Shown: one piece after another, positions 27,632 through 30,857 of the stretch
How the letters are laid out: each line of letters opens with the position of its first letter
Position numbering within the stretch: the stretch's first letter is position 1
Origin: Atribacteraceae bacterium
Lineage (GTDB): Bacteria; Atribacterota; Atribacteria; Atribacterales; Atribacteraceae
Direction: 5' to 3'
Length of the DNA: 39,625 bases
Assembly: GCA_035477455.1 (NCBI GenBank)
Contig: DATIKP010000172.1
Span: forward strand, 1-39,625
The notes under the pieces: model-generated
The model's database searches: none
The model's input: the letters and a program-made list of their open reading frames with translations, nothing else
What the model was told of the DNA's origin: nothing
Position numbers and translations under genes: made by a program

Positions 27632-28411
27632 TCACAATGAATTCATAGGGAAGAAGTTGGCCGGATTATCCCAGCCGCTGTAATCCACTTCGGTCAATTG
27701 AACAGCTCCCCACACCCCCAGGCGGTCATGATAACAGACCACCACACCCTCCATTTCCGGGAAACGGGCCGAAAATTCCAAGATTCGTTGGATATCTCCA
27801 TCCGTTTTCACTTCGTTCGCGAGCCTGGTAGCCCAGGCATCAGCCAAAGCCGAGGAAGCGGCCAGGACCGTGACCGAATCGGCCTGTCCGAAGCTGAACG
27901 ACGGACCCACCACTCCTGAGGAGGTGGCCACGCCCCAGTACCGTCCGGGCGGGAGAACGATACCCAGTTTGTCCCGAAAAGGCGATCGTTTTCCGGTATA
28001 CACACCGACAACCCGCTCCCGTTTCGAGTACACTAAAAGATCACCACCGTTTTCCAGGATCAATTCACCAAAGGTCGTCCCGAACAGCGACCCAATCCGG
28101 TCGTTCATCGCTCCGGCAACCGCGGCCATGGGACCCACTCCGGCCAGAAAAGACATGCGGGACATCAGGCGTACGACAGGCGGGGCTTCGGGAAAAACAC
28201 CGCGGGGAATCAGGGTGTTTTGAAAAAAGGGATCCACCGTCAAATACCGGAGAAGAGCCTCTCTTTCCCGGCGGAGCTGATCACGAACCAGACTGGAAAT
28301 GTCCCTTTGGGCGAGAACAAAAATGTCACTCTCTCCCTCTCTGACTATAAAGGCGTGGAGGCCGGCTCCTCTCAGTCGGTCCCGGTAAAACCGGCGCTCA
28401 TACAGGGCCAT
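27632..28411 (-). CDS. UPF0280 (COG2122) family protein, ApbE-like, homocysteine operon
   Basis: A 259-residue cytoplasmic protein of the UPF0280 family, distantly related to ApbE. Characteristic segments are the N-terminal YERRFYRDR, the central FLAGVGPMAAVAGAMNDRIG (about 110-129), ELILENGGDLLVYS and SSGVVGPSFSFGQADSVTVLA. In methanogens and anaerobic bacteria the family is genetically linked to the DUF39 and NIL-ferredoxin proteins of sulfide-dependent homocysteine synthesis, and it sits third in that operon here, 7 bp after the ferredoxin gene. Its exact reaction is not established to my knowledge. Its ribosome site is weak, so coupled translation is likely. Confidence 0.85.
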   Translation of the reverse strand: MALYERRFYRDRLRGAGLHAFIVREGESDIFVLAQRDISSLVRDQLRREREALLRYLTVDPFFQNTLIPRGVFPEAPPVVRLMSRMSFLAGVGPMAAVAGAMNDRIGSLFGTTFGELILENGGDLLVYSKRERVVGVYTGKRSPFRDKLGIVLPPGRYWGVATSSGVVGPSFSFGQADSVTVLAASSALADAWATRLANEVKTDGDIQRILEFSARFPEMEGVVVCYHDRLGVWGAVQLTEVDYSGWDNPANFFPMNSL

Positions 28412-28418
28412 CGAACAT

Positions 28419-28829
28419 TTAGATTAACGCTTCCATAGCGTGGGTAGGACAGGACAGTATACATATTTCACAGGCGATGCACTGCTTTTCTTCAAAGCTG
28501 ACGAGATATGACTCCCGATCGCACGTGAGCGCTCCGGTCGGGCAAACGCCGACACAGGCTCCACAATGAAAACAGCGTTCTTCGATTTTCCGGATATCCT
28601 GGCTGAGCGCCTCGATCCCCAGTCCTTTATCCGCAAGATAACGGAGTCCCTCCTCCTGCCGGTCCGGTTCTCCGACTATCTCCAGAAGCATCAACCCTTC
28701 CCGGTGCGGAGAGATCGATGCCCGAAGGATATTGAAAACCAGCCCGAATTTCAATGACAGTTCGCATACCAAGGGTTGGTTAGCTGCCTGCGGGGGGAAA
28801 CGCAACACCACCTTCCGTGAACTGGTCAT
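28419..28829 (-). CDS. NIL domain-4Fe-4S ferredoxin protein of homocysteine biosynthesis
   Basis: A 136-residue protein. The N-terminal NIL domain (about 5-78; RFPPQAANQPLVCELSLKFG) resembles the substrate-sensing domain of methionine importers. The C-terminal part binds two 4Fe-4S clusters via CFHCGACVGVCP and CIACEICILSCP. Homologues in Methanosarcina act with the DUF39 protein to convert aspartate semialdehyde and sulfide to homocysteine, so this is the likely electron donor. I start it at the ATG at 28829, 8 nt after a perfect AGGAGG; the in-frame GTG at 28838 overlaps that site. The Shine-Dalgarno overlaps the stop of the DUF39 gene. Confidence 0.88.
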   Translation of the reverse strand: MTSSRKVVLRFPPQAANQPLVCELSLKFGLVFNILRASISPHREGLMLLEIVGEPDRQEEGLRYLADKGLGIEALSQDIRKIEERCFHCGACVGVCPTGALTCDRESYLVSFEEKQCIACEICILSCPTHAMEALI

Positions 28830-28834
28830 CCGAT

Positions 28835-30067
28835 TCACCTCCTGATCGCCGTCTGATGATGATTGGCCGGCCGTTCCGTCAGATTACGAAAAATTACGCC
28901 GGATTCAGGTCCAGGCAGTAAGGCAACCGGTCGGCTGAGCTGAAACGACCCTGCCTGTATCCATGATTTCAGGATATTGGCTATCTCACGGGCTTTGCTA
29001 TAGCTCGACAAGGGGGATGCGGCTATTTCCTTGCCGGCCAGGGTAAACCGGCCGGTCCTGAGTTGAGCATAGCTGACATAGCCAAGCATTTCACCGGTCC
29101 CATTGGGATATGCGTCGCTGTAATCGATCACCGGCGCCAGGATATCCTCATCGGCGATGGCGCAATGGTTTAACGTTTCTTCGTCCAGGACCGGGATCGG
29201 AACGCCTATACCCAGGGCCAGCGAACAGCCATAACCCCGCAGGCTGACCCCCCACAGCCAGTCAGAATGCATGCCTTTCATATCTCCCGCCACCGCGAGT
29301 GTTCCCGCTCCGCTCAACGGAACACCCTTTTCATTTCTTTTCACTCCCGGATTGTGCTGAGTTCCCTGCCAGCTGACATAGCCAGTCCCCCCTCCGAGGA
29401 AAATTCTCGTCCCAATCCCAATGATTCGGTAATATGGATCCTTGAGAAGGGGACTGAGTTGTCCGGCCGAAGAAAACCCGGCATTGCCCAGGTTGGGAAG
29501 CAATACACCCATATAGGTAAAGAGCGTCCGGTCAGAACAGTTGACCGCTACATTGTAATTTTGATAGGCATTACGAGGATTGTAAAGATAGGCTTGGTTT
29601 AAATCTTTCAGGGCAATCCAGGTTGACAATGTCCGGCGGGGGTAGCAATCCGTGCCATATCCAAAGGCTTCCAGGTGAACGTCTTTTCCGGCCACCAGAT
29701 CGGCAATGACGTGTGCACCACCATATTTAAACTCTCCGGGGTGGACCTTGTTCAGTGGATCGTCTTTGGCCGGCTGAGTCGCCCCGATATAGAGGTCAAC
29801 CGCGGCCAGACCTCCATAGGCCGCCACACCGTTCAAGAAGGCTTCGCTGATTTTCATGCGCGGCTTGGTATGACCGACATTCAAAAAGGCACCGGAAGAA
29901 CACATAATTCCAAATGTCCCACTGGTGACGACGTCAACCTCTCTGGCTACCCGCTCCAATCCTTTCTGCCGAACCAGGCCGATCGCTTCTTCGGCGGTGA
30001 CCACCACCGCCTTTCCCCGTTTGACCTTTTCGTTGATTTCCTCATATGTACGCAATGTTTCCCCCAA
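28835..30067 (-). CDS. Homocysteine biosynthesis protein (DUF39/COG1900)
   Basis: A 410-residue protein of the family shown in methanogens to be needed for homocysteine synthesis from aspartate semialdehyde and a sulfur donor without O-acylhomoserine. The catalytic cysteine region SGTFGIMCSSGAFLN is present with Cys56, and a second conserved Cys lies in GYGTDCYPRRT. Other family segments are VDLYIGATQPAKDDPLN, LGGGTGYVSWQGTQHNP and MHSDWLWGVSLRGYGCSLALGIGVPIPVLDEE. It lacks the C-terminal CBS domains found in some homologues. First gene of a three-gene operon with a long leader carrying a terminator hairpin. Confidence 0.92.
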   Translation of the reverse strand: MGETLRTYEEINEKVKRGKAVVVTAEEAIGLVRQKGLERVAREVDVVTSGTFGIMCSSGAFLNVGHTKPRMKISEAFLNGVAAYGGLAAVDLYIGATQPAKDDPLNKVHPGEFKYGGAHVIADLVAGKDVHLEAFGYGTDCYPRRTLSTWIALKDLNQAYLYNPRNAYQNYNVAVNCSDRTLFTYMGVLLPNLGNAGFSSAGQLSPLLKDPYYRIIGIGTRIFLGGGTGYVSWQGTQHNPGVKRNEKGVPLSGAGTLAVAGDMKGMHSDWLWGVSLRGYGCSLALGIGVPIPVLDEETLNHCAIADEDILAPVIDYSDAYPNGTGEMLGYVSYAQLRTGRFTLAGKEIAASPLSSYSKAREIANILKSWIQAGSFQLSRPVALLPGPESGVIFRNLTERPANHHQTAIRR

Positions 30068-30091
30068 CAGTCATCCCTCCCCATCGGAAGC

Positions 30092-30133
30092 CTGAAAATA
30101 AAATCCCCCTCGTCCCAGGGACGAGGGGGATTT
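30092..30133 (-). terminator. Leader terminator hairpin of the homocysteine operon
   Basis: A perfect 15-bp stem (30101-30115 with 30119-30133, 3-nt loop CAG) followed on the minus strand by TTTTATTTTC. It stands between the operon promoter and the first gene. Just upstream on the transcript, GGGGAT (30143-30138) can pair with ATCCCC in the 5' arm of the stem, a candidate antiterminator. Confidence 0.75.
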
Positions 30134-30187
30134 GCTCATCCCCTTTTCAACCAAAGCCATACATTTTTTCGTTAGTCTTAGCATAGT

Positions 30188-30217
30188 AGTATAGACTCCC
30201 TCTCGTGGGCCTGTCAA
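30188..30217 (-). promoter_or_regulatory. Predicted promoter of the homocysteine operon
   Basis: Minus strand: perfect TTGACA (30217-30212), 18-bp spacer, TATACT (30193-30188). Start near 30181. The ISL3 remnant's target duplication begins 2 bp upstream of the -35 box. Confidence 0.65.
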
Positions 30218-30218
30218 C

Positions 30219-30226
30219 CAGTGTGC
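30219..30226. repeat. 8-bp target-site duplication, left copy (CAGTGTGC)
   Basis: Identical to 30579-30586. ISL3-family elements usually duplicate 8 bp of target. Confidence 0.8.
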
Positions 30227-30578
30227 GGCTCTACTTTATATTGTGTGGAAAAGAATATCAAAAAAACTTATGGTGGTAAGGACCCCGGAACAGAAAATTA
30301 AAGGGAAGGAGGTCTTACCAGCATGGTCAGAGGCCAAGATGATGGTACCACAATCCTGCTCGGACTTAAAGATTACAAAGTGGGGGGAGGTCTGGGGAGG
30401 GGAGGAGAAGGTGGTAGCAAAGACAGAGGTTAAGCTTCACCGAGGGGTGCCATACCAAGATTAAGATGCTAAAACGGGCATCCTGTGGCTTGAGAAACGT
30501 GAAGGTCTACTGGAGAAAAATGCTTTTGGGGTTTGTACCATCTCGAAGCTATTTCCCCACAACTTGACAAAAGAGCCC
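30227..30578 (+). mobile_element. ISL3-family insertion sequence remnant (internally deleted, 352 bp)
   Basis: The element is flanked by an exact 8-bp duplication. Its ends are imperfect inverted repeats: the left end opens GGCTCT and continues to TTGTGTGGAAA; the right end, read inward, opens GGGCTCT and continues to TTGTGGGGAAA. Between them lies only the C-terminal end of an ISL3-type transposase. The left two thirds is purine-rich and matches no transposase segment I recognise. It cannot move by itself; it may be a MITE-like derivative of a full-length relative. Confidence 0.8.
30436..30567 (+). pseudogene. ISL3-family transposase, C-terminal fragment
   Basis: This frame reads FTEGCHTKIKMLKRASCGLR and then NVKVYWRKMLLGFVP before a stop at 30565. 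That is the conserved C-terminal end of ISL3-family transposases (family pattern: GFTEGxHTKIKxLKRxSYGFRN). There is no start codon or DDE catalytic region. Only about 35 recognisable codons survive. Confidence 0.8.
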
Positions 30579-30586
30579 CAGTGTGC
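30579..30586. repeat. 8-bp target-site duplication, right copy (CAGTGTGC)
   Basis: Exact match to 30219-30226, immediately outside the right inverted repeat. Confidence 0.8.
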
Positions 30587-30738
30587 CCGGCGGAAAATAA
30601 CGCTCCTCCGGCTGAGACGCCCGGCTGATTGTTTTTGACCCCCCCCCAATGTATAATTGAAAACGAAGGAGTACTCCGCCGCTGCGCTTTGACCTGGCGG
30701 AATGGGAAAAAACGAGCTGTCAGACTGTGAAAAACAAA

Positions 30739-30836
30739 CAGGCATTTAGGTTGTAGAGGGTTAGCCTGTTAGGTAAAAAAAGGATAATTGTTTTGGTCGT
30801 ACCTAACCGCCTAAATCGCTAAACCGCTACAGCCTG
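30739..30836. repeat. Imperfect 37-bp inverted repeat in intergenic DNA
   Basis: Left arm 30739-30775 and right arm 30800-30836 match in about 25 of 37 positions, with both ends exact (CAGGC outside, TTAGGTA inside) and a 24-bp spacer. The arms are built from variants of a TTAGG/TTAGC motif; the right arm reads CCTAACCGC-CTAAATCGC-TAAACCGC. It lies just upstream of the small ACT-like gene. The rest of 30587-30857 shows no gene; it holds a C9 tract (30639-30647). Confidence 0.55.
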
Positions 30837-30857
30837 TATTTCCGGGAGGTGAACTGT

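Follow-up and report, generated by a model that had tools for sequence, protein, structure and literature searches.

A probable remnant of a methionine T-box riboswitch upstream of an Atribacteraceae homocysteine operon

The homocysteine operon and its short leader

The window, as the whole stretch of DNA analysed here is called, comprises 39,625 nucleotides of an Atribacteraceae genome (contig DATIKP010000172.1) and carries on its minus strand a homocysteine operon in the order DUF39, NIL-ferredoxin and COG2122-like gene. The first of these (28835 to 30067) is an intact HcyBio/DUF39 homocysteine biosynthesis gene encoding 410 aa, with a TTG start at 30067 (PF01837, E 1e-152), preceded by the Shine-Dalgarno-like sequence GGGGAGGG at 30075 to 30082. 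It is followed by a gene combining a NIL domain with two 4Fe-4S motifs (28419 to 28838) and by a COG2122/UPF0280-like gene (27632 to 28411) whose top NCBIfam matches are PRK04334 models, under their cut-offs. Homocysteine formation in Desulfovibrio vulgaris requires these three proteins, namely DUF39, the NIL-ferredoxin and a COG2122-type protein (PMC5764234). The HcyBio tree leaves the position of the window's gene inside the order undecided, and as the gene is intact and its branch is not unusually long, the operon is probably still used.

Upstream of the operon lies the promoter TTGACA-18-TATACT (30217 to 30188, minus strand), the top sigma-70 match (11/12) between 26000 and 33000 and matched by that of the T-box leader of L019, a relative of the same family (TTGACAGG...CTATACTAC). 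It is followed by an intrinsic terminator (30133 to 30101, minus strand) with a perfect stem of 15 pairs, nine of them GC, a loop of 3 and the tail TATTTTCAGG, which is the longest terminator in the same range; the end of the stem and the bases beyond it form the U-rich tract TTTTATTTTCAGG (30104 to 30091). The leader ahead of the terminator measures about 50 nt, close to the 45 nt or so of the original prediction. Folding of the 93-nt leader RNA gives -35.4 kcal/mol (z = -3.6), equalled by none of 200 shuffles. In computed structures, GGGGAU (30143-30138) pairs with AUCCCC (30131-30126) at -9.5 kcal/mol in a shorter transcript, while a longer 9-bp pairing, GGGGAUGAG/CUCGUCCCU (30143-30135 with 30125-30117), reaches -12.5 kcal/mol and is the minimum free energy structure at transcript lengths of 67-70 nt. 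From about 79 nt onward the minimum free energy structure is the terminator (-27.4 kcal/mol). The 9-bp helix, spanning 30143 to 30117, resembles an antiterminator without the tRNA-binding UGGUACC bulge. In the window, no Rfam family, SAM riboswitches included, scores at its threshold or above, and a relaxed search (E<=10) of 29980-30330 returns just sub-threshold matches to unrelated families and no T-box. Promoter, perfect stem with U-tract, competing GGGGAT and the missing SAM-I core are thus as originally described.

The leader is a single-copy sequence in this genome and not a repeat element. Farther from the operon, a 98-bp stretch (30226-30323) is 98% identical to the apparent end of another contig (G000:C137:10893-10990) and probably belongs to a multi-copy element. 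Pfam lends no support to a transposase relic suspected at 30302-30635. A dispersed repeat at 30729-30841, ending near 30841, is partially repeated at about nine other places in the genome, at 71-88% identity.

Methionine T-boxes in relatives and their probable trace in the window

The nearest named relatives of this genome are Atribacteria, including Caldatribacterium. A full T-box riboswitch (RF00230) precedes the orthologous HcyBio gene (73-76% identical) in 19/19 relatives at 95-146 bits, above the gathering score, the 19 loci being those from the same family or order for which sufficient upstream sequence is available. Their specifier reads AUG, for methionine, within GAA(C/T)-AUG-G[CT]C. 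This register is supported by the genome's own T-boxes, in which it reads CTC before ilvB (acetolactate synthase), TGG before trpX and TCC before a phosphoglycerate dehydrogenase-like, serA-like gene. The genome contains five T-box matches below E 1e-8, before ilvB, trpE, trpX and the serA-like gene (L036, L037, L038 and L039) and before argC. The argC match (L040:1440-1690) is a divergent T-box that scores 44.9 bits, below threshold, and has its GGTGGTACC motif intact. Relocation of the HcyBio T-box to another place in the genome was considered and rejected, as none of the five precedes HcyBio. At 73 HcyBio loci from other groups, no T-box motif is found within 500 nt upstream, so the methionine T-box is, as far as sampled, an Atribacterota trait. 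Within the order it occurs before HcyBio in all four sampled families, and this distribution together with the remnant itself argues for loss in the window rather than a primitive state. Descriptions of T-boxes from this phylum seem scarce, with no publication treating Atribacter and T-box together in the limited literature collection searched.

The window has no covariance match at the gathering threshold of RF00230, and its leader retains recognizable T-box parts. The 5′ strand of stem I is represented by GGTTGAAAAGGGGATGAGCA (30152 to 30133, minus strand), for which relatives have, e.g., GGCGATGAAAGGGATGAGTA. A 20-nt profile of the stem I start built from 18 relatives ranks this place first among 79,212 window positions on both strands, at a score of 18.4, the relatives' own sequences scoring 18.8-29.9, and a terminator-arm profile likewise places this site first in the window. 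Aligned directly with L019, the 5′ segment scores 28 vs 16.3 +/- 3.0 for shuffles, and 10 of 2000 shuffles reach 28. The 5′ arm of the terminator contains CTCGTCCCT, which in a T-box is shared with the 3′ strand of the antiterminator, here lost. Promoter, stem I start and terminator follow one another collinearly in the window and in the relatives: in L019, GATGAGTAACC lies about 49 nt past the -10 box of TTGACAGG..CTATACTAC, and in the window GATGAGCA follows the same promoter elements after about 47 nt, both distances counted by eye, with the terminator immediately after. The terminators of the relatives range from -17 to -28 kcal/mol, and that of the window is about as strong as their strongest and displays no decay.

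The stretch absent from the window corresponds to 178-205 nt in the relatives and includes the specifier codon in the stem I loop, stems II/III and the UGGUACC bulge; the bulge motif, AGGGTGGTACCRCGAG, is not found in the window leader. This comparison shows the promoter, the first stem I bases and the terminator to be present and four elements to be missing, namely specifier loop, stems II/III, antiterminator 5′ strand and UGGN bulge; GGGGAT appears to be the stub of T-box stem I. The putative deletion junction lies within GAGCA (30137 to 30133, minus strand), and GAGTA/GAGCA-like letters flank the missing stretch in many relatives. Such GAG(Y)A-like ends fit the trace expected of a deletion that joined two short matches.

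Taken together, the data indicate that the leader very probably derives, by deletion, from a methionine-specific transcriptional T-box riboswitch. The attenuator-type layout of the original prediction holds, with promoter, competing pairing and terminator in place. Its suggestion of a new or protein-mediated signal does not, since the orthologous leaders in all 19 relatives are methionine T-boxes; the window leader appears to be the stump of a known riboswitch, disabled rather than new. A single deletion of about 180-205 nt between two GAGYA-like matches would have removed the tRNA-reading core, leaving an RNA unable to read tRNA-Met. Without the four missing elements named above, no tRNA sensing by the T-box mechanism is expected. 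As the residual helix is weaker than the terminator, equilibrium energies predict mostly unregulated termination by default with some read-through, such that the operon would run at a fixed, low level from its own promoter. Continued use of the operon, which is probable, is hard to reconcile with a terminator that forms strongly by default, and this counts against a remnant.

A second homocysteine route and other readings of the leader

The genome also has a metY-metA route to homocysteine, which probably made loss of the T-box tolerable. It is encoded at L123:432-3700 by a consecutive cysteine synthase-like gene (a name based on sequence), metY (TIGR01326, over cut-off) and metA (PF04204). 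Among the 25 genomes searched, metY and metA occur together in three, all of one family: this genome, G001 and G002. MetX (TIGR01392) is found in none of the 25, but MetA is present. In G002, which is 87% complete, the metY match is partial and under cut-off, and no DUF39 match is found at E <= 1e-60. This pattern fits pathway replacement with tolerated loss of DUF39 control, in a small sample of incomplete drafts that can miss genes. G001 has metY-metA yet retains its T-box, which counts against a weakened need. The family presents four apparent stages, namely DUF39 with a T-box, both routes with a T-box, both routes with a broken T-box, and the metY-metA route where a DUF39 gene is not found, the last three represented by one draft genome each.

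A related but unlikely outcome is that the T-box became a short, ligand-free attenuator in which the bulge-less antiterminator sets a tuned read-through while the second homocysteine pathway takes over; if true, this would be a natural case of a riboswitch converted to a fixed-level device. It is improbable that the short leader was rebuilt as a working attenuator, with the 9-bp helix as an antiterminator governed by RNA polymerase speed, an RNA-binding protein or a small RNA. The competing helix does exist as a minimum free energy structure and the terminator stem is still perfect, but the terminator is more stable than this helix by about 15 kcal/mol, both strands of the helix are accounted for as T-box leftovers, and no relative has a comparably short leader.

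An assembly or amplification artefact, with about 190 nt dropped from a T-box that is complete in the living cell, is quite improbable. The deletion is known from a single 2.16-Mb draft genome of 174 contigs, the join sits at a short match (GAGYA) and every relative has the T-box, but a k-mer assembler is not misled by a match of about 5 nt, and no orphan T-box core lacking its gene is found elsewhere in the assembly. The deletion may instead be a strain variant. For an independent small RNA ending at the terminator, raised in the original prediction, the probability is very low: promoter and terminator make an RNA of about 90 nt likely as a by-product, but its components are T-box parts and no conserved short RNA is found among the relatives. 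Leader-peptide attenuation by the reading frame MLRLTKKCMALVEKGMSK... (ATG at 30185), open across the leader and hairpin with Cys and Met codons, is rejected as extremely improbable for want of a usable start: the ATG has no ribosome site and lies 3 bases past the -10 box, so that transcription probably begins there or farther downstream. The relatives, moreover, use T-boxes.

Comparison with known systems

As the probable remnant of a T-box, the leader offers a clear snapshot of riboswitch death, in which the sensor is excised and the stop signal remains. The leaders of the relatives indicate methionine T-box control of the DUF39 homocysteine pathway in Atribacterota, a mostly uncultured phylum, and connect this pathway more closely with methionine. 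SAM-I and other methionine-pathway riboswitches likewise place a leader terminator on a methionine-pathway operon, but Rfam finds no aptamer of these in the window leader. Unlike the transcriptional T-box (RF00230) of Atribacterota HcyBio operons, the window has no specifier loop, stem II/III, antiterminator 5′ strand or UGGN bulge, and tRNA binding is not expected. What it shares with that T-box is its position, its type of promoter, the start of stem I and the kind of terminator, CTCGTCCCT arm included.
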